A DNA stretch of 64,000 nt, taken from positions 1-64,000 of the forward strand of contig NZ_JANZYP010000010.1 in assembly GCF_025506355.1 (NCBI RefSeq). The letters are read 5' to 3'. Below the pieces are notes generated by a model. That model was not told the DNA's origin. It saw only the letters and a program-made list of their open reading frames with translations, and did not search any database. Origin of the DNA: Sphaerisporangium corydalis. Its GTDB lineage: Bacteria; Actinomycetota; Actinomycetes; Streptosporangiales; Streptosporangiaceae. Of this stretch, positions 157 through 23,533 are shown in pieces; position 1 is the stretch's first letter, and each line of letters begins with the position of its first letter. The position numbers and the translations under genes are program-made.

Positions 157-238
157 GGCAGGTTGCCCGAGTGGCCAAAGGGAGCGGTCTGTAAAACCGT
201 CGGCTCAGCCTACGCAAGTTCGAACCTTGCACCTGCCA
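157..238 (+). tRNA. tRNA-Tyr (GTA)
   Basis: Class II tRNA with a 7-bp acceptor stem (GGCAGGT with ACCTGCC), a wobble-closed anticodon stem around loop CTGTAAA giving anticodon GTA, a long variable arm and T-loop TTCGAAC. CCA is not encoded directly after the discriminator A. The 3' half from base 186 is identical to a second copy at 21658-21715, so this gene is the integration site and its 3' end was probably supplied by the incoming element. Confidence 0.95.
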
Positions 239-243
239 CACCA
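186..243 (+). repeat. attL: left 58-bp direct repeat
   Basis: Starts in the tRNA anticodon stem and ends five bases past the discriminator base. It is identical to 21658-21715; flanking bases diverge at once (C versus T before, G versus A after). A degraded third copy lies at 23483-23533. Confidence 0.93.
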
Positions 244-1950: not shown

Positions 1951-3516
1951 TTATTGCTGTGCGCCAGACAGGCAAGGGTGAACGGTGTAGGCGGGGGAAG
2001 GGCGGCGGCCGGGGCCGGTACGTGGCGGTTCGGGTTCACGCTGGATCCAGCCGAGTTGTTCGAGTAGATCGAGCGGTGTTTCCAGGTCGGCCACCTTGCG
2101 GAATCGCTTGCTGGCCACCCCGCGGAATGCCTCGCGGACGGTGAAGCGTTCGGGGCGGGTGCGTTCGAGCCAGGTGTGGACGGTACGTGCGGCTTCTAGG
2201 TCGGGGTCGGCGCCCATGGAGTCGAAGGCGGCCAGGGCGTGTGCGGTGAAGTATTCGCCGAGGGTGGCGGCGGCGTTCATGGTGTCGGCGGTGATGGGGT
2301 GTCGCCAGCCGTCGTCTATGTGCGCGGCGAGGTGGATGAGGCCGGCGATGCGGGTGACGGCGCCGTCGAATTTGCCTGCCCAGTCGGCGATGTGGCCGAG
2401 GTCGCCGGAGTCGGGGCGTAGGCGGGGTTCGGTGCGGTGGCGGTGGGCGGTGAAGACCTCGGCGGCTTGGGGGGAGAGGGTGAGTCGGGCGGGGTCGTCC
2501 CAGTCGTGCATGCCGATGACGAGTTGCCGGAGGTTGGTCTCGTATCGGTCGGTGACGTGCTGTGGTACGGGCGGGGGGTCGATGCGGCGGTATCCGACGT
2601 TGCTTTTCGGCAGGCTGTAGAGGATGCGTCCCAGGAGGCCCTTGCCGCGGAAGCCGGGCATGTTGGCGATGTCGGCGATGATCTCGGGTTGGACGGCGAG
2701 ACCCAGGGTCAGCGCGGCGTGTTCTACGTGTTCGGTGCGGCCTCGCCGGTCAACGATGAGGGTGTCGCCGGCGTGGCCTTTGAGAAACAGGTCCAGGTTG
2801 GGGATTCCGGAGTAGCGGCCGGCGACGGTGGCGAAGATGCCGCCCTCGGCGCTGAGGACGGCGAGGCGTCCGCCTTGTTCGGCCAGCAGGCTGGCGGCGG
2901 CTTCGGGGGTGATGTCGTCGGCCACGAGACGCGGTTTGACCGGTATCTGGATGCTTTCCACGGCCAGTGCGGCGCTTTGGGCTTCGGCGACGGCGGACAG
3001 TGCGGCCTCGCCGCGCGCTGCTGTAGCGGCACGCGCGGCTTTATCGGCGGCTTCGACGGCGAGGCGGCGTGATACCTCGGCTTCAACGATCTGCGGTCCG
3101 ACCCTGTTGAACAGGGCCTTTTCGGCTTGCCGTAGGGGTGAGGTCATGTCGCGGAACACGGCCGACTTTCGCGAGCCGGGCGGCATGGCGACCATGACGA
3201 ACAGGTTGACCGGCTCGACCCACGAGCCGCGGACGTTGACCACGGCGCGTCCCCCGGCGGCGGTGGACAGTGCGGCCATGGCGACGCATCCCGCGAGGTC
3301 GAGCGGGGTTTGGGTCTCTTCGGCGACTGCGGTCATGTGGTCGGCGACCCAGGCGGGGAACACGTGCGCGGGGAAGGGCGGCAACTCGGCGCGTTGCCCG
3401 AGCGGCACGGGTGTGTCCCACACGTGCGGGCGTGCGTGCAGTTTGGCCAGCACCTCGCTGGCGCCGACCTGGTGAAGGATGGCGTCAGCGCTGATGTCGG
3501 GTCGGTCGGTGCTCAT
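1951..3516 (-). CDS. DUF3987-family replication protein
   Basis: 521-aa protein resembling DUF3987 (YfjI-like) proteins, which accompany Prim-Pol proteins in actinomycete elements and are thought to act as the helicase-like half of the initiator. Residues ~107-120 hold a P-loop-like PPGSRKS after a hydrophobic strand. An Ala-rich helical stretch (~140-185) and an RGKGLLGRILYSLPKS segment follow, and the C-terminus looks like a small winged helix (FTVREAFRGV). The start overlaps the Prim-Pol stop as ATGA, so the two are translated together. Family assignment is by remembered sequence pattern. Confidence 0.75.
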   Translation of the reverse strand: MSTDRPDISADAILHQVGASEVLAKLHARPHVWDTPVPLGQRAELPPFPAHVFPAWVADHMTAVAEETQTPLDLAGCVAMAALSTAAGGRAVVNVRGSWVEPVNLFVMVAMPPGSRKSAVFRDMTSPLRQAEKALFNRVGPQIVEAEVSRRLAVEAADKAARAATAARGEAALSAVAEAQSAALAVESIQIPVKPRLVADDITPEAAASLLAEQGGRLAVLSAEGGIFATVAGRYSGIPNLDLFLKGHAGDTLIVDRRGRTEHVEHAALTLGLAVQPEIIADIANMPGFRGKGLLGRILYSLPKSNVGYRRIDPPPVPQHVTDRYETNLRQLVIGMHDWDDPARLTLSPQAAEVFTAHRHRTEPRLRPDSGDLGHIADWAGKFDGAVTRIAGLIHLAAHIDDGWRHPITADTMNAAATLGEYFTAHALAAFDSMGADPDLEAARTVHTWLERTRPERFTVREAFRGVASKRFRKVADLETPLDLLEQLGWIQREPEPPRTGPGRRPSPAYTVHPCLSGAQQ

Positions 3517-4460
3517 GCCGGGTCCCGGGGTTGGCGTTGCCCGGAGTCGAGCCCGGATCGGATGGTGGCGAACGCTTCACCGGCGGTGAGCCCGATGATC
3601 TCGGCGGCGATTTGGAGCGTTGTCTCGGCCAGATGGCGGGGAAGTAGTCCGCCGCCGGTGAGCAGGCCGAGGGCGAATGCCGCGGCATTGAGTGTGTCGT
3701 TGCGGGTGCCGGGCTGTGCGGTCAAGACCTGATCGATCTCGCCGCGGAGCGCTCCCAGGGCGTACCCGGCGGCGCGGTCTCCGCCTGTCTTGGCCAGTAC
3801 GTCCCCCACGGAGGTACCGGCCGGTCGGGGGGCGGGCGTGGTTTGCGTCAGTCTCGTGGCCAGCCAGGCGGGCAGGGGTGCCGGGGTGGCGGGGTTGATG
3901 ACCTCGTAGGGGCCGGTGCCGTCTGGCAGGTCTACGTAGCTGCCGGGGCCGACGACGTAGCCGCCGGATCCTCGTGTGTCGATCAGCCAGCCGAGGCCAC
4001 GGCCGCGGTTGCCGGCGGTGTTGCCCAGTGTGGTTCCGGGCGGGGCGGTGTAGTACAGGTGGGTGCCGCCTCGGCGGGTGCGGACTTGGAAAGTCTCCAG
4101 CGTGGGGGACGGCTGTCCGGCTTCCTCGCAGACCAGGGCGAGCACGTCTGCCCCGTCGTTGACGCCGGGCCGATCCCATGCGGGCGGGGGCGTCTCGCCT
4201 GGCTTGGGGGTGTCCAGATCGAGCACCACGAGCCCGGACGGGCCGGTCGCAATCCCGATGTTGTAGGGCCGCCGCCCCCAGATCCGGCGGATGAGTTCGG
4301 GGTCGGTGGTGACGTGGCGCTCCCAGTCGGTGAAGCCCTTGAGGGGCACCTTGTTGTGCATGGTGAGGGGGAAGACGTGCCAGCCGCGGGCGGCGGCGGC
4401 CAGCGCGCAGGCGGCCAGGCGCGTCCGCGAGGTGGGTGATATGGGGTGGGCGGTGGTCAC
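3513..4460 (-). CDS. Bifunctional DNA primase/polymerase (Prim-Pol)
   Basis: 315-aa AEP-type primase-polymerase that can prime and extend DNA at an element origin. Motif I is the acidic VVLDLDTP following GIATGPSG; motif II is RRGGTHLYYT; motif III lies around IDTRGSGGYVVGPGS. GTG 4460 is chosen because AGGAG lies five bases upstream; a GTG at 4466 would overlap that site. The stop overlaps the DUF3987 start by four bases. With the neighbouring DUF3987 protein it forms a replication initiation pair, common in AICEs that lack RepSA. Confidence 0.85.
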   Translation of the reverse strand: MTTAHPISPTSRTRLAACALAAAARGWHVFPLTMHNKVPLKGFTDWERHVTTDPELIRRIWGRRPYNIGIATGPSGLVVLDLDTPKPGETPPPAWDRPGVNDGADVLALVCEEAGQPSPTLETFQVRTRRGGTHLYYTAPPGTTLGNTAGNRGRGLGWLIDTRGSGGYVVGPGSYVDLPDGTGPYEVINPATPAPLPAWLATRLTQTTPAPRPAGTSVGDVLAKTGGDRAAGYALGALRGEIDQVLTAQPGTRNDTLNAAAFALGLLTGGGLLPRHLAETTLQIAAEIIGLTAGEAFATIRSGLDSGQRQPRDPA

Positions 4461-4567
4461 GGTCACTCCTGTCGATTGACGGCGCTTGAGCGGGCTGCGA
4501 ACCGGGGCCGGACCCCCTCTTGCCGGCCTAGGAGGGCGGGCTCGTAGGCCATGGAGAGGGGGCCGTG

Positions 4568-5653
4568 TCATGCCGCGCGTTGCGCAAGGGTCGGCGCCGT
4601 GCCTGCCATGTGGGCGCCGAGTAGGAGTCCGTAGGCGTGGTGTGCCTGCTGGGGCACTGCGCCGTTGCCGATGATCCTCAGTTGCTCTGTACGGGGGAGG
4701 TCCAGGTCGGTGACGTGGCCAGAGGGGAGGCCCATCATCCACTCGCCGAACTCGGGGTTGAGGCGGCGGTTTCCCCGGGTGCCGGGTTCGGTGGGGCAGG
4801 GCGCGGGCCGTCCGGTGATGGTTTCCCAGCGGTGGATGGCGGGGCCGTAGTCGGTGCCGTCAGTGGCGATCCACCGTTCGTCCAGGCGTACGGCTTGGCC
4901 GGGCAGGTAGTACCGGCCGCCGCCGTCACGCTGGTTCGGCCCGCCGTGGGGGCCGTCCGACGCCTTCGGGGTGGGCAGCAGGTTGACCACCACTTCGTTC
5001 AGCGGCCGGCTGTTGACGCCGATCAGGTTGGAGGCGCCGGACTTCCAGTCCCGCGCCGCTTGGGCGAGGTGCCAGGGCCGCCAGTTCCGTCCGAAGTCGT
5101 CGGGGTCGGCATCAGCGGGATGGGCGACGCAGAACCACCGATCCCGCGCGTGCGGTGCCCCGACTTCGGGGTCACCAGCTCGTAGACATGTCCATCGCGC
5201 GTCATACCCGAGCGCGGCCAGGTCGGCGGCGACGACGTCCAGCCCGCGGGAGCGGATCGCCGCCACGTTCTCCAGGAACACGAGACGCGGTCGAAGGACG
5301 CCCACAGCCGCAGCGACGTTCTTCCAGATCTTTGACCAGCGGCCACCGATTCCGTCCCTTCGTCCGGCGTTGGAGATGTTCCGGCACGGGAACCCTGCCC
5401 CGACCACGTCCGGCCGGTAGAAGTCCCGTACCGCGTGCCAGTCGGCACCGGTGATGTCCCCCAGGTTCGGGATCCCGGGGTGGTGGGCGGCGAACACGGC
5501 CGCGGCGAACGGGTCGTTCTCGGCGAACGCCACCACGCGGGTGCCGATCCCCGCGCCGATCGCGATCTCCAGTCCGCCGTAGCCGGCGCACAGCGCCAGC
5601 ACCCGTTGCGCCGGTGCCTGAATGCGGGAGGGCGTGGCGGTGAGGGGGCTCAT
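4568..5653 (-). CDS. DNA (cytosine-5-)-methyltransferase
   Basis: 361-aa C5 methyltransferase. Visible motifs: I (LCAGYGGLEIAIG, SAM binding), II (FAENDPFAAAVF), IV with the catalytic Cys (GAGFPCRNIS), VI (FLENVAAI), VIII-like (GAPHARDRWF) and X (RIIGNGAVPQQ). The target recognition region is the variable stretch between VIII and X. ATG 5653 overlaps the polymerase stop as ATGA; the much longer open frame upstream is only the polymerase read in another frame. No restriction endonuclease is nearby, so it is an orphan enzyme, plausibly shielding the element from host restriction after transfer. Confidence 0.92.
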   Translation of the reverse strand: MSPLTATPSRIQAPAQRVLALCAGYGGLEIAIGAGIGTRVVAFAENDPFAAAVFAAHHPGIPNLGDITGADWHAVRDFYRPDVVGAGFPCRNISNAGRRDGIGGRWSKIWKNVAAAVGVLRPRLVFLENVAAIRSRGLDVVAADLAALGYDARWTCLRAGDPEVGAPHARDRWFCVAHPADADPDDFGRNWRPWHLAQAARDWKSGASNLIGVNSRPLNEVVVNLLPTPKASDGPHGGPNQRDGGGRYYLPGQAVRLDERWIATDGTDYGPAIHRWETITGRPAPCPTEPGTRGNRRLNPEFGEWMMGLPSGHVTDLDLPRTEQLRIIGNGAVPQQAHHAYGLLLGAHMAGTAPTLAQRAA

Positions 5654-7512
5654 GCGGCGGCCCTCATGCTCGCTGAGGTGCCGCCGGGCAGGTGACCCCA
5701 GTGGGCGCCGAGGATCTCGGCGTCGGCCACGATCGGCACTCCGCGGAAGGTCAGGGTCATGGCGTCTCGCAGGGCGGTGCGGAGGTGTTCGGCCTTGGCG
5801 GCGGGGGCTTGGATGATGACTTCGTCGTGGACGAACAGCCAGAGTTTGGCGGTGGGGTGGCGGGTGGCGAAGGTGTAGACGGCGGCGAGCAGGAGGTCGC
5901 GGGCGGTGGATTGGACCATGTAGTTGCCGTTTGCGTAGCCGCGGGCGGGGTCGGCGGGGATGCGGCGCCCGCTGGGGGTGGTCACCGTTTTCTCGGTGGC
6001 CAGGCGTGCGGTGTAGGCGATGACGTTCGGGTAGGTGGTGCGCCATCGGGCGATGACCTGTCGGGCGACGTCGGGGGTGACGCCGGTTTGATCGGCTAGG
6101 GCGGTGGCGCCGCCGCCGTACAGGGTGCCGAAGGTGCATCGTTTGGACACGGTGCGTTGTTCGGGGGTGAAGTTGGGGCCGTACATCAGGGCGGCGGTGG
6201 CGTCGTGGATGTCGACCCCGGAGGCGATGACGCGTTTGAGGGTGGGGTCGTCGGCCAGGGCGGCGGCTACCCGCACCTCTACTTGGGAGAAGTCGCAGGA
6301 GATCAGGACGTGCCCGGGGTCGGCGGCGAAGCACCTGCGGAGCCGGGGGTCGTGTTTCTTGAGGGTTTGCAGGGCGGGTGCGGTGATGCTCATGCGGGCG
6401 GTCTTGGCGCGCAAGGTGTTGATCTGCGGGTGGACCCGCCCGGTCGGGTCGGCGGCTTGGATGAAGGACTTCAGGTTGTGGATCAGGTTGGAGGTCCGTG
6501 CCATGGTCAGACGTGCGGCCACCAGCTTGGCCACCACGGCGGGCAGCGTGGTGGCGTGCTGCTCGGTCAGGGCGGTGAGGGTGTCGGCGGTGATCTGGAG
6601 GCGGTCGGTCGGGGTGCGGGGCATGCCGGTGATGCCGGCGGCGGTGAGTTGGGTGTCCAGCCAGGCGGCGAAGCGGGGTGAGGCGCCGCGGAAGCACAGG
6701 GCGGTGGTGATCCGCGTCTCTGCGGCGGCGTGCTCGCCCTGGACCTCGGCCAGGAGGGTTGCGGTATAGGGGCGGTCGAGTTGCAGGCCGCGGATGGTGA
6801 TGGCGGTGGCGCGGGCGGCGAGCCACTGTTCCATGTGGACCAGGTGGGTGAAGGCGCGGCAGCGTGCCAGTAGTGCCGGGAGCAGGCGTCGCGCGTAGAG
6901 GGCGTCCAGCCCGGCGTAGACGACGTACGCCTCATCGTGGGTGGGTAGGTGGTTCCAGCCCCAGACCAGCCAGGCGTTACCGGCGCGGTGGCCGGATGGT
7001 GCCAGGGCGCGCATGCGGTCGTGCAGTGCGGCCTCGGCGTCGCACAGGCCGTTGTCGAGGTGGCGGGCGGTCAGTTCCTTGAGCCCGTGGCCGGCGCGTT
7101 CGTCGGGGTCGATCAGCTTGGAGATCAGGTGGGTGTCGATGACGCGCTGTCCGAGGGCGATGCCGAACACCGCCCAGAGCGCTACGGGGTCGTAGTTGGT
7201 GTGGGTGACGAACCGCCGGGCGGGGTCAGCCAGGGTGGCGCGGATCGCGGCGTTCTGGGCGGGGTCGGCAGGGTCCAGGACCCACGCGTGGGTGGCGCTG
7301 GCGAACTGGACGAGTCGTACGGTGAAGCCGGGGGCGAACTGGCGGGGGCCCTTGTCGTTGATGGCGCTGGTCTCCACGTCCAGCCCCAGCATCTCCTCCC
7401 CGGCGGTGAACGCGGTGAACGCGCGGGGGTCGAATCCGGCGGGGGTGTGGACGGTCAGGGTGTGCCCGCCGATGACGCGCACGTAAGCGGCCGGGGGCGG
7501 GGCGCTGGTCAT
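5650..7512 (-). CDS. Family-A DNA polymerase (PolI-like, with 3'-5' exonuclease domain)
   Basis: 620-aa DNA polymerase I-type enzyme without the 5' nuclease domain. The N-terminal ~220 residues are a DnaQ-like exonuclease (LGLDVETSAI, THTNYDPVALW, YAGLDALYARR). The C-terminal half has polymerase motif A (SCDFSQVEVRVAAALA), motif B (RTVSKRCTFGTLYGGG) and motif C (LFVHDEVI). ATG 7512 overlaps the upstream 87-aa gene stop by ATGA and precedes recognisable exonuclease sequence. A dedicated replicative polymerase is more typical of phages than of small conjugative elements, and here it sits between SSB and the Prim-Pol block. Confidence 0.93.
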   Translation of the reverse strand: MTSAPPPAAYVRVIGGHTLTVHTPAGFDPRAFTAFTAGEEMLGLDVETSAINDKGPRQFAPGFTVRLVQFASATHAWVLDPADPAQNAAIRATLADPARRFVTHTNYDPVALWAVFGIALGQRVIDTHLISKLIDPDERAGHGLKELTARHLDNGLCDAEAALHDRMRALAPSGHRAGNAWLVWGWNHLPTHDEAYVVYAGLDALYARRLLPALLARCRAFTHLVHMEQWLAARATAITIRGLQLDRPYTATLLAEVQGEHAAAETRITTALCFRGASPRFAAWLDTQLTAAGITGMPRTPTDRLQITADTLTALTEQHATTLPAVVAKLVAARLTMARTSNLIHNLKSFIQAADPTGRVHPQINTLRAKTARMSITAPALQTLKKHDPRLRRCFAADPGHVLISCDFSQVEVRVAAALADDPTLKRVIASGVDIHDATAALMYGPNFTPEQRTVSKRCTFGTLYGGGATALADQTGVTPDVARQVIARWRTTYPNVIAYTARLATEKTVTTPSGRRIPADPARGYANGNYMVQSTARDLLLAAVYTFATRHPTAKLWLFVHDEVIIQAPAAKAEHLRTALRDAMTLTFRGVPIVADAEILGAHWGHLPGGTSASMRAAA

Positions 7513-7772
7513 CGGGCCTCCTGCGGGTGGCAGGCCGGGCAGGTCCACAGGACGGGGGCCGAGGCCGGGAGGACTTCCGGCGTGCGGCACCTCTGGCAGG
7601 CAGGCGGCCGGGGGCGGGGCAGGGCCGCGGCGAGCCACAGGTAACCGTCGCCGGCGAGTGCGGCGTCGCTGGCGGCGGGGTCGGCGCCCGCGGAGGTCAC
7701 ACCGGATATCGGGGTGTCGGTTTCGTGGTCGACGGTGAACAGGACGGCCTGATCGGCGGGTGTGGGTGTCAT
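7509..7772 (-). CDS. Small zinc-ribbon protein (87 aa)
   Basis: 87-aa protein of unknown function. The acidic N-terminal half (FTVDHETDTPISG) resembles no family I know; the C-terminal half has two Cys pairs, CQRC and CPAC, separated by 21 residues, typical of a zinc ribbon. A good AGGGAGA ribosome site precedes ATG 7772. The stop is embedded in the polymerase start (ATGA), so a polymerase accessory role is a reasonable guess, no more. Confidence 0.7.
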   Translation of the reverse strand: MTPTPADQAVLFTVDHETDTPISGVTSAGADPAASDAALAGDGYLWLAAALPRPRPPACQRCRTPEVLPASAPVLWTCPACHPQEAR

Positions 7773-7842
7773 GGTGGTGTCTCCCTTCGTCGGAGCCTCG
7801 GGGCGGGTGGGGTGCCGCCCCGAGGCGCGTTCAGGGGCAGGG

Positions 7843-8328
7843 TTAGAACGGGGGTTCGTCGCCGTTCCAGGAGCTACCGGGCGCGCCCGCCGCGGCCGGG
7901 GCGGGGGTGTTGGAGGCCCACGGGTCGCTCTGCGGTGTGGCCGGCGAACTGGCGTCGCCGTTGCGGGTGGCCTTGACGGGCTTGGCGGTGGCGAAGCGCA
8001 GGGAAGGGCCGATCTCGTCAACGGTCAGTTCCACGACGGTGCGCTTGTCGCCCTCGCGGGTCTCATACGAGCGCTGGGACAGGCGGCCGGTGACGATGAC
8101 CCGCGCGCCGCGGTTGAGGGACTCGGCGACGTGGTCGGCCATCTCGCGCCAGGCAGAGCAGCGCATGAACAGGGTGTTGCCGTCGTCCCACGCACCGGCT
8201 GCGCGGTTGAAGGTGCGCGAGGTCGAGGCGACGGTGAAGCCGGCCACGGCCAGGCCGCTGCCGGTGAAGCGCAGTTCGGGGTCGGTGGTCAGGTTGCCGA
8301 TGATGGTGATGGTGGTCTCGCCGGACAT
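7843..8328 (-). CDS. ssb: Single-stranded DNA-binding protein
   Basis: 161-aa SSB with an OB fold over residues 1-110 ([54 protein letters not shown]), a Pro/Ala linker and the acidic tip DEPPF used to recruit partner proteins. It is the element's own copy, expected to coat single strands during replication. Its first nine codons and upstream leader recur almost exactly at the start of the next upstream gene. Confidence 0.96.
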
Positions 8329-8603
8329 GAGCGGGTCCCTTCCGTTGGGTGATCAGGTCAGCGGACGTTGAGCAGGCGGGTACCGGTGCGGGGGCGGCGG
8401 CCGTTGCCGGCGCAGGTGGGGCACCGGGCGTCGGAGTGGGCGAACACTCGGCTCAGGCGGTAGCCGGTGCCACGGCAGGGGCGGCAGCGAACCTCAGGGC
8501 TGCGGGTCAGCGCGTGGCGGTAGCCGACGACGGCGAGCGCGACGGCCGGGGGCAGGGCGAACAGGGCGATGGTGATGGTGGTCTCGCCGGACATGGGCGG
8601 GTC
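8302..8603 (-). repeat. Duplicated translation-initiation segment (two 36-bp copies)
   Basis: Bases 8302-8337 and 8568-8603 match at 35 of 36 positions. Each covers a start codon, its first nine codons and the preceding 8-9 bases. One belongs to ssb, the other to the 78-aa membrane/zinc gene, and similarity ends abruptly on both sides. Confidence 0.85.
8358..8594 (-). CDS. Small TM plus CxxCxGxG protein (78 aa)
   Basis: Residues 1-9 (MSGETTITI) are identical to the SSB N-terminus, then one membrane segment (IALFALPPAVALAVVGY), then two DnaJ-type zinc motifs, CRPCRGTG and CPTCAGNG. ATG 8594 is chosen because the leader and first codons duplicate those of ssb. Function unknown; a membrane-tethered zinc-finger peptide. 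It shares layout with the 72-aa product at 8983-9201. Confidence 0.65.
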   Translation of the reverse strand: MSGETTITIALFALPPAVALAVVGYRHALTRSPEVRCRPCRGTGYRLSRVFAHSDARCPTCAGNGRRPRTGTRLLNVR

Positions 8604-8658
8604 GTCCTTCCATCGGGGCGGGTCGTGCGGGACGCCGGCGCGGCATTTCACGGGGTTG

Positions 8659-9290: not shown

Positions 9291-9330
9291 GGTGCTAGGT
9301 CTAGCGGAGGCGGGCGCTAGACCTAGCACC
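9291..9330. other. 16-bp perfect palindrome with GCTAG repeats; candidate clt transfer locus
   Basis: Two 16-bp arms (GGTGCTAGGTCTAGCG and its complement, 9291-9306 and 9315-9330) flank an 8-base spacer, 10 bases beyond the traB stop. Further GCTAG-type words occur at 9244 and 9282. There is no T-run, which argues against a simple terminator. TraB translocases bind short repeated sequences near their own gene, so a cis-acting transfer site is the best guess. Confidence 0.45.
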
Positions 9331-9340
9331 ATTTCGCGGG

Positions 9341-11608
9341 TCAGGATCCGGTCCCGGACCCCTGCTTTCCGTCACGCTGGGTGATTGCGGTGGTGATGTC
9401 GTCGCGGGTGATGCCGCGCCGGTTGGCGCCCTTGCCGCCGGTTTCGGGGGTGCCCCAGACCTGCCCGGTCTTGATGCCGTGCGGTTTGAGGGCGGTGGTG
9501 AGCTGGGCGGCGCGGGCGTCGGCCTCCAGCTCCATCCACGGCCCGTAGACCTCGGGCCGCAGTTCGGCGAGCCGTGCCACGACGATCTCGTTCCACACCT
9601 TGACCTCGGCTGGGCCGACCACCGACAGGATGTCGGCGAGAAGGTCGTGGGTCGGCGCCGTCACGGTGGGGCCCTCGCCGAGGGCGTGCCCGGTCAGGGT
9701 GCCCGCGGCCTTGCGCAGGGCGTGGGCGCGGTCGGCGATGAGCTGGGTTTGGGGGGTGTCCAGGTAGGCGGACTTGACCACTTTGGGCATCGGGGTGGCG
9801 CCGACCAGGTAACCGGTGCCGGCGTCGGCCTCGGGCACGAACACCGTGGCGCGGATCCCGTTCTTGTACGCGGAGGTGCCGAGGATCATGTCGTTCTCGA
9901 TCTGGCCGGCGACGCGCAGGCAGTACCGGATGGACACGTTGGCGCTGATGCCGGTGGGGAGGCTGTCCTTGTCGGGGCGCTGGGTGGCCAGGATCAGCAC
10001 CACGCCCAGGGCGCGCCCTAGTTTGATGATGAATTCGGCGTCCTCACCGGCCTTGGCGCCGTAGGTGGCGTGCGCGAACAGGTTCTGGCATTCATCGATG
10101 ATGCAGACCAGTGGGTGAAGTCCCAGAGAGCGTTTGTCGGCGATCTGCCGGGTGACGCGCTTGTCGGGGCAGAGGTCGGGCGGCAGGGTCTTGAGCGTGG
10201 CGGCGCGGCGCATGACCTCTTTGCGCAGCAGGGTCAGCGAGTCGGCGGCGTAGGCGATGGCCTCGTCGTGGATGCCGGAGACGTACCGGTGGCACACCTT
10301 CTCGTAGGGGTCCAGGTCGCCGGTGCCCTTCAGCTCGTGGAACCATCCCTCGGTGGTGGGGTCGAGCACGATGCCGGCGCCCAGTTCGCGCACGGTGGCG
10401 GTTTTGCCCTGTCCGGGGAGGGAACCGATCAGCACGTTGTGCTGGATGAGCGGCACCTTGACGGCACGGCCTCGGGGGTCGTTGCCCAGCGGGATGCCCT
10501 TGAACACGTCGTGGATGGTGGCCTTGAGCAGGGGCGAGGTGACGATGGTCTTGGACAGGTCCTTGTCGCCGACCCACAGGATCAGCCGCCCCTCATGGAT
10601 GGAGGAGTCGCCCTCAGGCCAGATGGCGCCGAGGGGCCGGCGCAGCGCACCGGACAGCCGGTCTCGTTTGTCCAGGACGTCTCCCACGGTCACGCCGTAG
10701 GGCAGGTCCAGGTCGGCGCGCCAGCCGGGGCCGTCGCGGGTGATCGGGGCGACGAACCGGATGGCGTCCTTGGGGTTCTTGGACATGGCCTGGGTGATGC
10801 CGGGGATGCTGAGCGCGGTCAACGCGCGGATGACGATGTCGCTGGTCAGCTTCTCCACCGTGGAGGCCAGTACGGCGCGCTCGATCAGCGGGCGGTCGGC
10901 GGGCTTGCCCAGGACGCCGAGGGCGGCCAGCGCCACGGCCAGCGTCCCCCACTGGGCGGCGGTCGGGGCGGCGGTCACGATCAGCGCCACGATCAGCAGG
11001 GTGATCAGCACGGCCAGCGCGATCGGGACCCGCAGCCGGACCCGCGAGTCACGCTGACGCGACAGCTTGAGGTAGATCTCCGGGTCGGCCTTCTGGACCG
11101 CGGCCACCCGCACCGGTTCGCCCTCCAGGTCGAACGTCCAGCGCACCATGCCACCCACCAGGCGGACCAGGCCGCGGGGGGAGCGGTAGGCCAGGCGTCC
11201 GGCGTACAGGGGGGTGTGGGTGAGCTGGTAGCCGGTGACGTGGGCGTAGTGCCGGCCCATCCAGCTCAGGGTGTGCACGGCCTCGGTGCGCGAGCGCAGC
11301 CACAGCGGGACGATCCGGCGGCGGGTGCTGGCCTTGCCCTCCAGTTCGGCCCACCAGTCGCGGCGCTCCCCGCCGGGCTGGTCGACCTGGACCGCGTCGC
11401 CCAGAACCCTCGCGCCGGTCGGGGTCTCGGGGTCGGTGGGGGTGGGGGCGTCCTCGGCGGGCGGGTAGGGGTGGCGTCCGGCGCGGGCGGTCTCGATCGA
11501 GACCACCTCAGCGACGGGCCCGTCATCGGGCATCTGGTCGTGGGGTTCGTCGGGGAACAGGTCCCAGTCGCGTGCGGGACGCTCGCCGGGGTCGTTGGGC
11601 TGGGTCAT
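9341..11608 (-). CDS. traB: TraB/FtsK-type DNA translocase
   Basis: 755-aa conjugal transfer ATPase. The N-terminal ~120 residues are soluble and acidic; about residues 190-235 form a hydrophobic hairpin (VPIALAVLITLLIVALIVTA and a following helix). The motor domain has Walker A GSLPGQGKT and Walker B LVCIIDECQNLF, then an RP-type arginine segment (ILATQRPDKDSLP). The C-terminal ~90 residues resemble an FtsK-gamma-like DNA-reading domain. Such proteins pump double-stranded DNA between mycelia without a relaxase. ATG 11608 overlaps the upstream membrane gene stop (ATGA). Confidence 0.9.
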   Translation of the reverse strand: MTQPNDPGERPARDWDLFPDEPHDQMPDDGPVAEVVSIETARAGRHPYPPAEDAPTPTDPETPTGARVLGDAVQVDQPGGERRDWWAELEGKASTRRRIVPLWLRSRTEAVHTLSWMGRHYAHVTGYQLTHTPLYAGRLAYRSPRGLVRLVGGMVRWTFDLEGEPVRVAAVQKADPEIYLKLSRQRDSRVRLRVPIALAVLITLLIVALIVTAAPTAAQWGTLAVALAALGVLGKPADRPLIERAVLASTVEKLTSDIVIRALTALSIPGITQAMSKNPKDAIRFVAPITRDGPGWRADLDLPYGVTVGDVLDKRDRLSGALRRPLGAIWPEGDSSIHEGRLILWVGDKDLSKTIVTSPLLKATIHDVFKGIPLGNDPRGRAVKVPLIQHNVLIGSLPGQGKTATVRELGAGIVLDPTTEGWFHELKGTGDLDPYEKVCHRYVSGIHDEAIAYAADSLTLLRKEVMRRAATLKTLPPDLCPDKRVTRQIADKRSLGLHPLVCIIDECQNLFAHATYGAKAGEDAEFIIKLGRALGVVLILATQRPDKDSLPTGISANVSIRYCLRVAGQIENDMILGTSAYKNGIRATVFVPEADAGTGYLVGATPMPKVVKSAYLDTPQTQLIADRAHALRKAAGTLTGHALGEGPTVTAPTHDLLADILSVVGPAEVKVWNEIVVARLAELRPEVYGPWMELEADARAAQLTTALKPHGIKTGQVWGTPETGGKGANRRGITRDDITTAITQRDGKQGSGTGS

Positions 11609-12609
11609 GATGGGGTCACCTCGTGCTCGTTCATGCGGGCGGGGTTGCGGGGCGCGGCCACTGTTCTTGGCGGATTGGGGGCCGCGTCCCGTACGGGGAC
11701 GGTCGGGGGCGGGGTGCGGTCGGACCGCGTCTGGTCGGTGCGGTCGGCGGGGGTGGGGTCGGCGGTCGGACCGTGCGGTCGGTCCGCGGCGGTCGGTGCG
11801 GTCGGGGCGGGGTCGGTCGGGGGTTCGGTCCGCAACCGGGCGAGCAGTCGTCCGGCGCGGTCGGTCGAGATGGACTGGCCGGTCTGGCGGACCGCGTCGC
11901 GGAGCCGGTCGCGGGTCAAGGTGATGCCGCGTGCGTCGTGGTCGGCCACGATGCGCCATCCCAGCGGCATGAACTCGTCCACGTCCGCGGGGGAGACAGC
12001 CGTACGGCGAGGCCGGTCGGCGGGCGTCTTAACGGGCTTGGCCGTGCGGGCTGGCTTGCGCGCTGGGGCCGGGCGCGGCTGGACCGGCAGAGGTGCGGGC
12101 GGCGGGATAAGGGTGGTCGGGCGGTCGGCGGTCTGTATCGCCTGGCGCAGGGCGGTGATGGTCACGGCGATGTTGCGCTGTATCGAGGCGGCGGCCTCGG
12201 CCACCACGATCAGCAGCACCGGTCCGCAGGAGTGGATCAGCACGCCGATCCCGTCGACTCCGGCGGGGTTCATGGCGGGGGTGGCGACGTTAAGCAACCA
12301 CGTCATCAGGCCGGCGGTCCAGCGCAGTGCGGTCAGCCATCCGTCACGCACGCCGTAGCGGTCCAGGGCGCGGCCACCCACCAGGGCGACGACCAACCCC
12401 ATGTCCACCATCGGCGACAGCATCCAGGCGATAGCGGGGTGGACGGCGTGCGCGGTGAGCAACCCGAACACGTTGCCCGCGCCGTAGACCATGACCCCGA
12501 CCGCGATGCCCCATACCGGGCGCCCGACGTTGCGGCTGGTGCGCTGCAACCCTTCGAGTTCCGCCTGAGCTTCGGCGCGGGTCAAGGTGGCAGCGTTCGC
12601 GCCGGTCAT
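11605..12609 (-). CDS. Spd-like membrane protein (DUF2637-type)
   Basis: 334-aa protein with about four membrane helices in residues 30-145 (VWGIAVGVMVYGAGNVFGLL, AWMLSPMVDMGLVVALV, a segment near TAGLMTWLLNVATP, VLLIVVAEAAASI), then a Pro/Arg-rich cytoplasmic tail with a small helical domain (PLGWRIVADHDARGITLTR) and a disordered end. This layout matches SpdB/DUF2637 intramycelial spread proteins encoded next to traB. Both ends overlap neighbouring genes by ATGA, placing it firmly in the transfer block. Confidence 0.75.
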   Translation of the reverse strand: MTGANAATLTRAEAQAELEGLQRTSRNVGRPVWGIAVGVMVYGAGNVFGLLTAHAVHPAIAWMLSPMVDMGLVVALVGGRALDRYGVRDGWLTALRWTAGLMTWLLNVATPAMNPAGVDGIGVLIHSCGPVLLIVVAEAAASIQRNIAVTITALRQAIQTADRPTTLIPPPAPLPVQPRPAPARKPARTAKPVKTPADRPRRTAVSPADVDEFMPLGWRIVADHDARGITLTRDRLRDAVRQTGQSISTDRAGRLLARLRTEPPTDPAPTAPTAADRPHGPTADPTPADRTDQTRSDRTPPPTVPVRDAAPNPPRTVAAPRNPARMNEHEVTPS

Positions 12610-12782
12610 GGCCGTTCACCTCCCGCGGGGCGGCGGTCGTGGATGGAGTGCGTCGAGCGGGTCATGCCGTGCTTGCGGGTGACCTCAAGGAAGCGTTCGT
12701 CGGACTTCTGAAAGGTGGGGAGCTTCTCCCCGTGGACGGTGATGCCGGGGCGCTTGCTGGTGTCGAGCTTGCGGGGCGTCAT
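12606..12782 (-). CDS. Small basic hypothetical protein (58 aa)
   Basis: 58-aa basic protein (TPRKLDTSKRPGITVHGEK, then KSDERFLEVTRKHGMTRST). No known domain recognised. It is tightly packed: its start overlaps the upstream zinc-protein stop and its stop overlaps the Spd-like gene start, each as ATGA. Coupling is the main evidence that it is translated. Confidence 0.6.
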   Translation of the reverse strand: MTPRKLDTSKRPGITVHGEKLPTFQKSDERFLEVTRKHGMTRSTHSIHDRRPAGGERP

Positions 12783-13165
12783 GCGGCCACCTCCGTGGCC
12801 TCGGCGCAGTCCAGGCAGGTGCCGAGGTGGCGCGGCAGCACGTAACCGGCGTCGGTGCCGCAGTCGGGGCAGGTGCGGCGGGCGGTGTTGGCCTTGTCCA
12901 GCGCGCGAAGCTGGGCGGGGGTGGCGGTGCGCTTGGGCAGGGCGAACCGCACGTCGTACAGGTAGGCGGCGCGGACGCCGGGGGCGCCGTGCCGGCGCGA
13001 GCGCCACAACACCTGTGCTTGCACCCCCTGCCCGCCGGGGCGCAGACCGGCGGCGGTGAGCTGCCGCAGGGTGGCCAGGTGCGGCGGGGCCATCCGCCAC
13101 GGCCAGGTCGGGATGCCGTACCGGGAACCGGTCGGGTCCCAGAACGCGGCGCGGATGCGACTCAT
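12779..13165 (-). CDS. Zinc-binding AICE accessory protein (RRQRL-type family, tentative)
   Basis: 128-aa protein. The N-terminal half has a Trp-rich stretch (IPTWPWRMAPPHLATLRQL, then TAAGLRPGGQG) that I associate with small 'RRQRL motif' zinc-binding proteins of Streptomyces conjugative elements, although that exact motif is absent here. The C-terminal half holds a zinc ribbon, CPDC followed by CLDC. Its start overlaps the upstream 61-aa gene stop as TGATG. Role unknown; position suggests transfer or replication support. Confidence 0.65.
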   Translation of the reverse strand: MSRIRAAFWDPTGSRYGIPTWPWRMAPPHLATLRQLTAAGLRPGGQGVQAQVLWRSRRHGAPGVRAAYLYDVRFALPKRTATPAQLRALDKANTARRTCPDCGTDAGYVLPRHLGTCLDCAEATEVAA

Positions 13166-13350
13166 CAGGCAGCCTTCCCGAGGGTGGCGTGGAATTCGCT
13201 GTCCAGGTCGGCGGCGTAGACGGCGCGCCGGCACGGGGCGCAGTGGAACAGCACCGGTCCGCCGTCCAGGGGGGCGTGGCAGCGTGGGCAGGGCTTGGCG
13301 GCGCCGGCGCGGGGCATCGTGCCGGTTGCGGGCGTGGCCGGTGCGGTCAT
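13165..13350 (-). CDS. Small zinc-ribbon protein (61 aa)
   Basis: 61-aa protein with CPRC and CAPC pairs (residues ~21-24 and 37-40), a minimal zinc ribbon, followed by a short helix. No family recognised. The start overlaps the Nudix gene stop (ATGA) and the stop overlaps the next zinc-protein gene (TGATG). Confidence 0.65.
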   Translation of the reverse strand: MTAPATPATGTMPRAGAAKPCPRCHAPLDGGPVLFHCAPCRRAVYAADLDSEFHATLGKAA

Positions 13351-14042
13351 CGCGGGTCGCCTCCCCTACCGGGCGCCACGGCGGCGGCCGTGAGGAATTC
13401 GGTGAGCATGGCCTGGTGGGCGGCGAAGATGACCCCGCGGTACGTCGCGTGGAGGTAGTCGGCCAGGATCGTGACGGTGTCGGCGCGCACCCACGCGGCC
13501 CGCTTGGCGTCGTCGGCCCCTGCCAGGGCGGGGAACGCCTCCCTGCGGTTGGTCCCCAGGTGGACTCGGGCGGGTACGGTCACCATCCACGCCTCATCGC
13601 TGGCGCGAGGATCGGGCACATACCGCGCCGGGAGCACCTGCCAGGTGACCCCGGGCAGGGTCAGCCCGGTTTCCTCGGCCAGCTCACGGATTGCGGCGTA
13701 GGCGGCGCTCTCGCCGGCCTCGACGTACCCGCCGGGCAGCGCCCAGCCGTGTCCGTCCCGTCGTTCGACCATGGCCAGCCACCGCCGCCCGTCCTGGTCG
13801 GTGGCGGTCACCACGGCGTCGGCGGCCAGTTGCTCGCCCCAGTGCCCCAGCTCGTTGCGGCCGTAGCGGATGCCGGTCGGCGCGTGGGGGTTGACCGGGC
13901 GGCCGTCGACCACACGGAACGGGATCGCGGCCTCGGCCTGCCGGATGGCCCAGTCGATCAGGGCGGGGTCGGCGATCGGGTCGGCCCACCCCTCCCGGAC
14001 GCCCTTGTCGAACACGTCGGGGTGTGTGTAGGTGCGGGTCAT
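13347..14042 (-). CDS. Nudix hydrolase
   Basis: 231-aa Nudix enzyme with the full box GGYVEAGESAAYAAIREL followed by AEETGL, giving the GX5EX7REUXEEXGU pattern. About 80 residues precede the Nudix fold and resemble the N-terminus of other actinobacterial Nudix proteins. Substrate unknown (a nucleoside diphosphate linked to another moiety). Nudix genes are a recurrent AICE component, as in pSAM2, where one is implicated in signalling within the element. Confidence 0.9.
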   Translation of the reverse strand: MTRTYTHPDVFDKGVREGWADPIADPALIDWAIRQAEAAIPFRVVDGRPVNPHAPTGIRYGRNELGHWGEQLAADAVVTATDQDGRRWLAMVERRDGHGWALPGGYVEAGESAAYAAIRELAEETGLTLPGVTWQVLPARYVPDPRASDEAWMVTVPARVHLGTNRREAFPALAGADDAKRAAWVRADTVTILADYLHATYRGVIFAAHQAMLTEFLTAAAVAPGRGGDPR

Positions 14043-14947: not shown

Positions 14948-15184
14948 TCACAGCGAGATCCGGTTGGTGCGACCGCACTCGCGGCAGTCGGCGAGCGTCT
15001 CGTCCTGGTTCGGCGACAGGGGGTCGGCGGTGGTCTTCTGGCAGTAGCCGCACACCCACTGGCCGAGGCCGCCGACGTTGCACCACGAAGTGGCGACGTA
15101 GACGGGGTAACCCTCGACGTAGGACTTCCACGACTTGCGGTGAGCGGGTACGGCCTTGTCCCTGCGAGGCTTGAACGGGGTCAT
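14948..15184 (-). CDS. Small zinc-ribbon protein (78 aa)
   Basis: 78-aa protein: basic N-terminus (TPFKPRRDKAVPAHRKSWK), an aromatic middle, then CGYC and CREC pairs forming a zinc ribbon (GQWVCGYCQKTT, ADCRECGRTNR). The start overlaps the WhiB stop as TGATG. Unknown function; one of several Cys-pair proteins in the same transcript. Confidence 0.65.
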   Translation of the reverse strand: MTPFKPRRDKAVPAHRKSWKSYVEGYPVYVATSWCNVGGLGQWVCGYCQKTTADPLSPNQDETLADCRECGRTNRISL

Positions 15185-15723
15185 CACGCGGCCTCCCGCC
15201 AAGCGGCCTCGGCCTCGGCGTCGATCTCCGCGGGCGTCATACCAGCCCACACACCCGAATCGGGGCGGACCTTCAGGGCGTAGATTCCGCAGACCAGGCG
15301 GGCCGGGCAGGGTGCGCAGACCTCCCGCGCCACGGCCTCCCGTGCGGCCTGATCCTCGGCGGACTCGCCGCCCTTGGGGCCGACGTGCAGCTCGGGGTCA
15401 TACACGCACTCGGCGTTCTCGGCGAGCACGCCCGGCGCACCGGCAATGGCCAGCGCCGAGGGATGAACAGGGGTGAAGGCGGCGCCGTAGGTCCAGGCCG
15501 CGGCACGGGCCAGCGTGACCAGGTCGGCGGCGTCCTCGGCGGTACCGCACACCTTGACCAGGCGGCCCTCGTACCGCTCGACGGCCGCCCATACCGGGCT
15601 GCCGCTGATGGATGTCCGCCGGTGAAGCTCAGCGGTCACCAGCTCCACGCCGACCGTGTGTCGGCGAGAAGCGCGCTGAGCCCTGGCTAATTTGCCCGTG
15701 CTGATCGGGACGGCTTCCGTCAT
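15184..15723 (-). CDS. WhiB-family iron-sulfur transcription factor
   Basis: 179-aa protein whose C-terminal ~70 residues match WhiB-like factors: one upstream Cys (NAECVYDPE), then EVCAPCPARLVC giving the CxxC-x5-C cluster, then the turn GVWAGMT (usually GVWGG). The four Cys should hold a 4Fe-4S cluster. The spacing between the first and second Cys is longer than in many chromosomal homologues. The N-terminal ~100 residues are an unrelated alpha/beta region. It sits near the start of the long element transcript and may regulate it or sense redox state. Confidence 0.85.
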   Translation of the reverse strand: MTEAVPISTGKLARAQRASRRHTVGVELVTAELHRRTSISGSPVWAAVERYEGRLVKVCGTAEDAADLVTLARAAAWTYGAAFTPVHPSALAIAGAPGVLAENAECVYDPELHVGPKGGESAEDQAAREAVAREVCAPCPARLVCGIYALKVRPDSGVWAGMTPAEIDAEAEAAWREAA

Positions 15724-21657: not shown

Positions 21658-21715
21658 GGTCTGTAAAACCGTCGGCTCAGCCTACGCAAGTTCGAACCTT
21701 GCACCTGCCACACCA
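21658..21715 (+). repeat. attR of the intact element / attL of the remnant
   Basis: A 58-bp copy of the tRNA-Tyr 3' half, identical to 186-243. The tRNA 5' half is absent, so no tRNA is made here. To its right the order seen beside attL (hairpin, then the integrase 3' end on the minus strand) is repeated, so this site also bounds the degraded second element. Confidence 0.93.
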
Positions 21716-21823
21716 AGCAGAAACGGCCCTTGACCAGCGTAAATGCGGTCAAGGGCCGTTCTCGTTGTGTCCGGCTGGGATCGGGTCTCTACGGCTGGCT
21801 GTGCCCAATGCGTGCCCAAGGAT

Positions 21824-22280
21824 TCACGGGGCCGTGGCGTCCAGGATCCGGCGCATGGCCTCCCCCTGTTGCCCATGGATGCACTTGGTGTAGACCCGCA
21901 AGAGCACGTCCACGCGGTGCCCGGCCCACTCGGCGATCTGAGGCGCGGGGGCGCCCGGCGTTGAGCCACGTGGACATCGCCGGGTGACGCAGGGCGTAGG
22001 GCGCATTCATGAGCGACGATGCGGCTTCCTCTGGGGTGAACGCCTGCTTTCGAGACTCGTGAAAGACCTTGAGGTACGCGCGATTAGTCATCTCACCGCC
22101 TCGCGGGCCGATGAACACTCGCCCATCAGGGCCGGTGCCGAACTCCTTCAGGTGGGAGCGAGTCGCGCCACCAGGTCAAGGTGAATCGGTACTGGGCGCG
22201 TCTCACCGTCCGCGCGGTGCTTGAGCGCCCGGCGCTCTCGCGGCTGGCCGTTGTTGGTCCAGCGGCTGCCGGCGCGTGGA
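21824..22280 (-). pseudogene. Integrase C-terminal fragment, frameshifted
   Basis: Reads as the last ~150 residues of an integrase very like the one at 362-1744, split over frames. RAGSRWTNNGQPRERRALKH lies near 22273-22214; VFIGPRGGEMTNRAYLKVFH and PYALRHPAMSTWLNAG are in a second frame; PAPQIAEWAGHRVDVLLRVY is in a third, ending at 21824. Breaks fall near 22160 and 21957. Upstream of about 22280 similarity stops abruptly, and the N-terminal two-thirds are missing. Not functional. Confidence 0.85.
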
Positions 22281-22590
22281 AGCTCCCGCAGGATCTCGCG
22301 CACCGTATGTATGTAGCCGAGACGCGACAATCAGCGACATCGTACTAATTCGCTATCTTCCTCGAGGTAACGCAACGCCCTAGCTTGGAAATGGCCAGGA
22401 CGGGAGACGGCAGGGGCCGAGCACTACGCGACTGCGGAATGATACTTACGAATGAGCCTGATCGAGGAGCGCGCCAATGCTAAGCGCAAGTTCTGGCCGA
22501 TCTCGTGACGCGGCGGTGCGACTCGAACATGTGAACCAATCGTAGTAACGGGAGTGTGGATTTCTCCCGTAGATAGCTTGCGTGGCCGCC
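22281..22590. other. Non-coding junction inside the remnant element
   Basis: About 310 bases between the truncated integrase and the membrane gene, probably the deletion scar. A 75-codon minus-strand frame (22424-22651) crosses it, but its product shows no domain and it overlaps the end of the membrane gene by 61 bases. I see no convincing gene here. Confidence 0.4.
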
Positions 22591-23199
22591 CTATCGCTTG
22601 CGTCTTTTCGTTATTAGAAATATTAACGCCAGGCATATTATGTGTCGCCATCCAATAAGCTCTGTGGCGTGCGCTAGGGCGCTTGTTGGCTTAGCGGTTC
22701 TTGGACGAAGGCGCTTCGGCTGCTTTTCGTTGATCTCCAATAAATGTTGCTCTGTTGAGTTGTTGACGAGTACGGGCTTTCTTGACTTCCTATACCAAAT
22801 TATCATGTAGCCCAAAGTAAAGCTGAGCCCGCTGCCAATCCACCATGGATACAGTAGCTGGGTAGCCTTTGATGCCAGGCAATCAGCCATGCGTGTTGCA
22901 TCGCGTACGTCCGGGCAGAGCTCCCAGCCGAGCTGTTGCTGTACCGGAAATGCGGCAATTAAAAGAGCGCTCGCGCCGATCACAGCACCTGTTGCAGCGG
23001 CTCTAAGCAGGGCAGTCAGCCAGTGTGTCGGTCTTTCAAATCTAAGGAATCCCCCGATGGTTAATAATAGCAGAGTGCCGATTATCGTGGTGGAAGTATC
23101 CCAGCCTCCATCTTCGGATAGAGTCGCAAGGCTAATGCTGATTGGAATTGCAATCAACGCCGCTGGATCGATCTTTGAATCATTAGTACGTGTAACCAT
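22591..23199 (-). CDS. Hypothetical membrane protein (202 aa)
   Basis: 202-aa protein with about four or five membrane segments (ALIAIPISISLATL, TTIIGTLLLLTIGGFL, AAATGAVIGASALLIAAF, WWIGSGLSFTLGYMIIWY and HIICLALIFLI near the end), a Cys-containing loop (WELCPDVRDATRMADCL) and a basic C-terminus. ATG 23199 is chosen because the open frame further upstream runs through the att repeat; ATG 23223 is possible. Lower GC than the chromosome. No family recognised; a passenger of the remnant element. Confidence 0.55.
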   Translation of the reverse strand: MVTRTNDSKIDPAALIAIPISISLATLSEDGGWDTSTTIIGTLLLLTIGGFLRFERPTHWLTALLRAAATGAVIGASALLIAAFPVQQQLGWELCPDVRDATRMADCLASKATQLLYPWWIGSGLSFTLGYMIIWYRKSRKPVLVNNSTEQHLLEINEKQPKRLRPRTAKPTSALAHATELIGWRHIICLALIFLITKRRKR

Positions 23200-23482
23200 G
23201 AGGATACGATAGGTGATCCACATGGCTGGCTGTGGGCTCTTTGCCCATCTGGCCTGCGCCCAAGTAGCCAAGCGAGACAGAAGCACACCAGCACGCCCAC
23301 GCTTCACCAGCCAATCAGCGGGCATTGCGCTGTAGGAGGACCCCCTGTCGGCCGCTCCTCGGCGGCTGGCCTGGAGGCCAACGTAGACATGCGTCGTATT
23401 CGCGTCGCGATACATGTTCGGTAAGTCAAAGACTGAGAGTTTTACCAGTTCAGAGGCCTGTTTGTGGTTCGGTGGACAGCAC

Positions 23483-23533
23483 TCTGTAAATCGTCGGCTC
23501 AGCCTACGCAAGTTCGAACCTTGCACCTGCCAC
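23483..23533 (+). repeat. Third, degraded att copy (attR of the remnant)
   Basis: Matches the tRNA-Tyr 3' half from the anticodon loop to the acceptor end, but with a one-base deletion plus a substitution at the anticodon stem (CTGTAAATCG instead of CTGTAAAACCG). It lacks the tRNA 5' half. A probable tRNA terminator follows 18 bases later, so this marks the original chromosome junction. Confidence 0.85.

Follow-up and report, generated by a model that had tools for sequence, protein, structure and literature searches.

A phage-like family-A DNA polymerase and a small zinc-ribbon protein that behave as an optional cassette in an actinomycete conjugative element

Why should an element integrated in an actinomycete genome carry a DNA polymerase of its own? 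The question is raised by a 64,000-nucleotide stretch of Sphaerisporangium corydalis DNA (contig NZ_JANZYP010000010.1; hereafter the window), in which positions 186-21715 hold an element encoding a family-A polymerase (PolA) and, overlapping its gene by 4 bases, a small zinc-ribbon protein of 87 residues that we call Zn87. From gene content and comparison with related loci, we lean towards the view that this is an actinomycete integrative and conjugative element (AICE) of the primase-polymerase (Prim-Pol) class, with a swappable helicase/initiator, that has been extended by a cassette of Zn87 and a phage-like polymerase acting as a replicase. The original prediction for this locus, made from the DNA letters, had gone further and suggested host-independent copying, or repair in the course of double-stranded transfer.

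The polymerase (5650-7512, minus strand; 620 aa) matches PF00476 (4.7e-52), PF01612 (6.5e-6), and phrog_17 (1.8e-102). It consists of exo1 (3'-5' exonuclease) and polymerase domains only; the N-terminal 5' nuclease of full PolI is not present, and bit scores are far under the cut-offs of the PolI models. Motifs A, B, and C and the exonuclease ligands are invariant in 9/9 aligned polymerases, and dN/dS values of 0.21-0.37 (5 pairs computed) indicate purifying selection. The gene thus looks intact and phage-like and lacks the 5' nuclease, as had been predicted, and the concern that catalytic ligands might be missing does not hold on alignment.

All genes of the replication region lie on the minus strand, head to tail in the order SSB, Zn87, polymerase, C5-cytosine DNA methyltransferase, Prim-Pol, DUF3987 protein, Xis, and integrase, with an FtsK-like gene upstream. 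Domain matches bear out every family of the original prediction at its stated place: the SSB (7843-8328; PF00436 2.6e-28, NF005851 3.1e-65) ends in an acidic DEPPF tail, and beyond the polymerase come the methyltransferase (4568-5653; PF00145 6.9e-27, phrog_363 4.8e-52), the Prim-Pol, an archaeo-eukaryotic primase (3513-4466; PF09250 8.1e-42), and the DUF3987 protein, a predicted replicative helicase (1951-3516; PF13148 1.7e-108, phrog_2373 7e-66). Zn87 (7509-7772), Xis, and the FtsK-like gene had been missed. The tyrosine integrase (362-1744, 460 aa; PF00589 2.5e-7) adjoins a Xis-like helix-turn-helix protein (1744-1932, 62 aa), recognised via the corresponding ORF L009:14310-14525 (HTH_17 3e-12). 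The FtsK/TraB-like double-strand DNA translocase (9341-11608) is called from phrog_1358 (2.6e-23); its product has no match to the Pfam FtsK model, and the TraB model (0.0011) is under cut-off. The ends are 58-bp direct repeats derived from a plus-strand tRNA-Tyr gene (157-239; ARAGORN), the integration site. The first att copy (186-243, plus strand) starts within this gene and is identical to the second, at the right end of the element (21658-21715, plus strand). With a tyrosine integrase and tRNA-derived repeats, an FtsK/SpoIIIE-type Tra, and a Prim-Pol-type replication protein, the element counts, by its gene content and ends, as a Prim-Pol AICE sitting in tRNA-Tyr, predicted to excise, replicate, and transfer. 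It is not of the RepAM type, in which DUF3631 adjoins Prim-Pol, since that slot holds DUF3987.

The polymerase belongs to a small group of relatives. When 84,980 species genomes were scanned by pattern, a search that detects close relatives only, 8 loci emerged at 61-81% identity. Among 297 sampled genomes of the host's family, 8 have a match (E <= 1e-60), 6 of them in the same clade (including the host's own) and 2 at 35%; in a class sample of 394 genomes there are 3 (the host itself, G478 with 64%, and another with 37%), and 1/35 genomes of G478's family has a match. After merging overlaps by identity and position, the clade has ten members: the window, L005-L012, and L023. In the tree these form one clade on a long stem with 100/100 support, separate from 2 host, 8 phage, and 6 other rows. 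Two rows of this tree are identical and four long ones are unsurely placed; with 5 rows removed, three of which are long branches, support is still 100/100.

What recurs around these polymerases is a cassette of Zn87 and the exonuclease-polymerase, with SSB nearly always and a DNA-modifying gene often alongside. Prim-Pol and Zn87 lie near PolA in 10/10 loci (L007 is at a contig edge, and in L012 Zn87 is approximately 1.2 kb away), and SSB does in 9/10, that of L007 being on another contig of its genome, where the rest of a Zn87 is found together with SSB and an FtsK-like match at the contig edge. A C5 methylase is present in 5 of the ten loci and a PAPS-reductase-like gene in 2. The window and its nearest relatives share the order SSB-Zn87-PolA-(methylase, PAPS-like gene, or nothing recognised)-Prim-Pol-helicase-Xis-Int, with the PAPS-like gene ahead of Zn87 in L009 and no Xis or Int match found in L008. 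Two other arrangements occur: L010-L012 have methylase-Zn87-PolA-SSB-Prim-Pol-590-aa protein, and L023 has SSB-Prim-Pol-Zn87-PolA-DUF3987-Xis-Int. What fills the helicase/initiator slot varies, with DUF3987 in the window and L023, DUF3631 (RepAM) in L005, L006, L008, and L009, and, between Prim-Pol and the integrase end of L010-L012, a family of approximately 590 aa. This family is unmatched in Pfam, as are the two members tested in PHROG, and is a candidate new replication protein. In L009, PolA and Prim-Pol share one stop-free reading frame (9992-12994). The distance from FtsK to Prim-Pol is 3.6-5.8 kb in 9 loci with PolA and has a median of 895 bp (range 4-4240 bp) in 77 loci without it, a difference that is partly trivial because the cassette occupies that gap.

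How common is this arrangement? Prim-Pol occurs in 114/297 genomes of the host's family (E <= 1e-12). We compared 96 Prim-Pol loci, stretches of at most 20 kb, of which 6 have PolA and 90, drawn from the better of at least 150 matches with weaker Prim-Pol matches left out, do not. All six carry Zn87 (five by profile and L007 by partial match), while no Zn87 was found in the 90 others. PolA is an uncommon add-on among the family's Prim-Pol loci examined, contrary to the possibility that most AICEs already carry it, and its scarcity suggests that in related elements this work is left to host enzymes. Zn87 itself was detected in 9 of the 297 genomes: the six with PolA, one clear orphan, and two weak matches. 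SSB is present in 18/96 loci, including 5 with PolA. The slot holds DUF3987 in 22 loci and RepAM in 42; in 32, including L007 with its truncation by a contig end, the three slot profiles gave no match. FtsK (approximately 82/96) and Int (approximately 72/96) counts are approximate, each profile having one seed (L023:1262-3760 and L012:12252-13688, respectively) without independent support, and the FtsK call in L023 depends on that seed.

Much of the remainder of the element has a different set of relatives. Its integrase is 75% identical to the nearest homologue in a locus without PolA versus 51% in one with PolA; for Prim-Pol the values are 65-68 versus 56%, and for DUF3987 79 versus 43%. With 90 loci lacking PolA and 9 carrying it the comparison is lopsided towards the former, yet for Int and DUF3987 the two values lie far apart. 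The Nudix and 334-aa proteins of the window are also closest to elements without PolA; the methylase (67%) and FtsK-like protein (79%) are closest to elements with it. In the loci compared, PolA and Zn87 occur in PolA-bearing elements only, and the best match to the window PolA (81%) is in a RepAM-type element. Since the helicase slot varies and Int, Prim-Pol, and DUF3987 have their nearest relatives in elements without PolA, PolA-Zn87 behaves as an optional cassette. The element would then be a mosaic in which this block has the transfer gene on one side and the Prim-Pol replicon on the other, with SSB occurring with or without it.

How might such a cassette work? Once the element is excised, DUF3987 would open the circle, Prim-Pol would make primers, and SSB would cover single strands. 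The dedicated polymerase would extend the primers and proofread, yielding extra circles ahead of FtsK-type double-strand transfer. Zn87 would act as its partner and tether it to the host beta clamp via a QxxLF tail, and the host would provide the clamp loader, 5' nuclease, and ligase. The copying by the polymerase, the order of action, and the clamp link are inferred. The helicase role follows a prediction by the authors of PMC5862659, made because DUF3987 replaces known helicases beside primases; neither the DUF3987 profile nor the window Prim-Pol has a match among PDB sequences at E 0.1 and 0.01. Protein scans of the window covered part of the ORFs between 362 and 16122 and turned up neither a clamp or clamp loader nor a ligase or 5' nuclease, so that the element is most likely still dependent on its host. 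It appears to carry fork-side activities (Prim-Pol, SSB, proofreading polymerase, and DUF3987) yet to need the host for the rest. These absences, together with the Zn87 motif, which points to use of the host clamp, and the acidic tail of SSB, leave the host-independent copying of the original prediction unsupported.

The clamp link is the weakest step, a lead rather than a demonstration, and we put it forward tentatively. The parts of Zn87 are a variable tail, a middle that is better conserved (majority GDGYGWLA), and a ribbon of the form CxxC..CxxC, whose first pair is without its second Cys in L023; there is no Pfam, PHROG, or phage match at E 0.01. The full QxxLF motif is present in 7/11 tails, as QAVLF in the window (N-terminal), QPALF in L005, QASLF in L006, L008, and G271, QIGLF in G052, and QLSLF in L023. 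Q, L, and F are thus constant while positions 2-3 vary (AV, PA, AS, IG, LS) in an otherwise variable tail. The consensus of beta-clamp-binding peptides is given as QL(S/D)LF, and the motif of Hda lies in a disordered N-terminus (PMC11139829); QLSLF is the PolC form (PMC3919608). In a structural model the first 40 residues of Zn87 have block pLDDT values of 49-61, i.e., low confidence in the tail. The motif is rare, occurring 49 times in 483,913 residues of 1672 predicted proteins of these loci, and in 100,000 shuffles at most 2/9 tails had it versus 5/9 observed. PolA has no conserved motif of this kind, with a loose match in 3/10 clade rows at differing places. Near phage-type polymerases it was seen in 2/31 neighbouring CDS, Manatee gp47 (QNGLF at residue 15, near the N-terminus) and pM018 (QIGLF at residue 81, internal); a 32nd CDS listed there was itself a PolA. 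With a tether, the pairing of Zn87 and PolA would make sense, as would the ability of a phage-type enzyme to handle a circle of 21.5 kb. In the fullest version, the element would have made a phage-type polymerase its own replicase, tethered to the host beta clamp by Zn87 as a dedicated adaptor; Prim-Pol, helicase, SSB, PolA, and Zn87 would form a portable replisome for which the host supplies no more than clamp, loader, primer removal, and ligation. This version seems to us a shade more doubtful still.

Several observations weigh against the replicase reading and its clamp link. The motif is absent from L011 and L012 and lacks its Gln in L009 (PAVLF) and L010 (PAALF); QxxLF also occurs somewhere in 10/466 small predicted proteins of these loci. 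The shuffle test overstates independence because the Zn87 copies are related. Zn87 is less constrained than PolA (dN/dS 0.37-0.69, 3 pairs), and the orphan in G052 (L182, approximately 10119-10403), likely a relic, has its QIGLF without PolA or any other element match in 20 kb. There is about an even chance that Zn87 is no more than a zinc-ribbon protein that binds DNA or RNA, with a QxxLF that is fortuitous or another short motif; the 4/11 copies without the full motif fit this, as do small CxxC proteins lacking it beside some phage polymerases, while the fixed Q, L, and F amid changing positions 2-3 do not. SSB is not specific to the cassette, being present in 13/90 loci without PolA, and the SSB nearest that of the window is in such a locus (66 vs 63%). 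The L009 fusion comes from one metagenome assembly with ambiguous linker codon usage. Finally, 90/96 Prim-Pol loci lack PolA, as judged within stretches of at most 20 kb in elements where a remote copy is possible; replication as such can then proceed without the polymerase, whose use could lie in repair or in evading defence.

That last thought leads to an alternative we regard as unlikely though worth keeping in mind, namely that the polymerase is accessory cargo and no replicase, part of an establishment module with the methylase or PAPS-type gene that fills gaps after double-strand transfer or synthesises DNA while the host replisome is blocked. Its optional nature and the frequent proximity of a DNA-modifying gene agree with this, whereas the constant linkage to Prim-Pol, the natural fusion, and the SSB nearby in nine of the ten loci argue for replication, and no repair gene was recognised beside PolA in the part of the neighbouring ORFs scanned. 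Could the region instead be the replication module of a prophage, satellite, or phage-plasmid? We consider this very improbable. Such polymerases are common in actinophages (2386/50,697 phage records match) and DUF3987 and SSB have phage relatives, but all phage matches to PolA are below 60% identity, near-full-length ones being at approximately 35% and partial ones at up to 38.7% (over 42% of the query). The clade excludes 8/8 phage rows, Zn87 is unmatched in phages, the tRNA att ends and the genes for FtsK-like, WhiB, and Nudix proteins resemble those of AICEs, and the scanned part of the ORFs yielded neither capsid nor tail genes.

As to where the polymerase came from, host PolI is ruled out as the source (30% identity, outside the clade). 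Recent phage capture is rejected as well, the best near-full-length phage match among those listed being at most 35.3%, and a scan of viral contigs gave one locus at 31%. Of 72,556 plasmid records 106 match, 5 of them over 80% or more of the query; among the matches listed, the longest two are 31.6 and 32.5% identical, disfavouring a plasmid-borne copy. The M. intracellulare record in the plasmid set is phage-like by annotation, and the Nocardia and Nonomuraea records carry no annotation in that set. Separately, L027:17011-17950 has a phage-type PolA with a C5 methylase that is up to 61% identical to that of the element, in two pieces.

Other genes, again on the minus strand, encode a small DnaJ-type zinc protein (8358-8651; PF00684 2.1e-4, under cut-off), a 334-aa protein also found in polymerase-free elements (11605-12609; 69% identity over 287 residues in L111), a Nudix hydrolase (13347-14042; phrog_1198 5.8e-13), and a WhiB-like regulator (15184-15711; PF02467 7.9e-10). 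A 36-bp direct repeat (97%) has one copy at the start of SSB (8302-8337) and the other inside the small ORF ahead of it (8568-8603), which looks like a duplication of the SSB start. Directly beyond the FtsK-like gene, 9291-9330 contains a perfect 16-bp inverted repeat, a candidate terminator or replication/transfer site. Past the right end, a third att copy of 42 bp lies at 23492-23533, and ORF 21789-22118 resembles, by eye, the C-terminus of the element's integrase; 21715-23533 is probably what is left of another element that used this tRNA-Tyr site.

The element may copy itself by a private polymerase attached to the host sliding clamp. If Zn87 does bridge a phage-type polymerase and the host clamp, this would be an unusual processivity route for a family-A enzyme. 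Related elements with and without the polymerase form natural sets for a direct test of its benefit, and Zn87 is a compact marker for locating more of them.

Compared with known systems, the element shares tRNA-gene integration, integrase, Xis, Prim-Pol, and FtsK-like Tra with Prim-Pol AICEs such as SLP1 and the RepAM/RepPP types, as described in PMC3218068; it has DUF3987 in place of RepAM or an SCO4618-like gene and adds SSB, Zn87, and the polymerase. A polymerase in an AICE is not new in itself, since one sentence of the same paper (Ghinet et al. 2011) reports a DNA_pol_A protein in 1/40 Prim-Pol AICEs, Fdat2245 from the Frankia symbiont of Datisca glomerata, which we liken to the present element by description only. 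In five f17/g84 genomes, guessed to be relatives of Fdat2245, we found one strong DNA_pol_A match each, plus partial or broken extra pieces in two; in one stretch around the pieces of each of these two, Prim-Pol, integrase, and FtsK gave no match (Prim-Pol was not searched genome-wide). No other description of the cassette was found in the literature, judged mostly by titles and abstract starts, so that, as far as these searches go, the PolA clade, the Zn87 partner, the cassette's behaviour across helicase slots, the PolA-Prim-Pol fusion, and the clamp-motif proposal are new. Pipolins and other self-synthesizing elements are likewise integrative with their own DNA polymerase (PMC9710591), but theirs is a primer-independent family-B enzyme; the ORFs scanned up to 16122 hold a family-A polymerase with a separate Prim-Pol and FtsK-type transfer. 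Actinophage PolI-like enzymes (phrog_17) have the same exonuclease and polymerase domains, approximately 600-620 aa in most rows, and no 5' nuclease; they differ in their approximately 35% identity, separate clade, and lack of a Zn87 match. T7 polymerase is a phage family-A enzyme with a small processivity partner, thioredoxin. Zn87, by contrast, is an element-encoded zinc ribbon, proposed here to recruit the host clamp.

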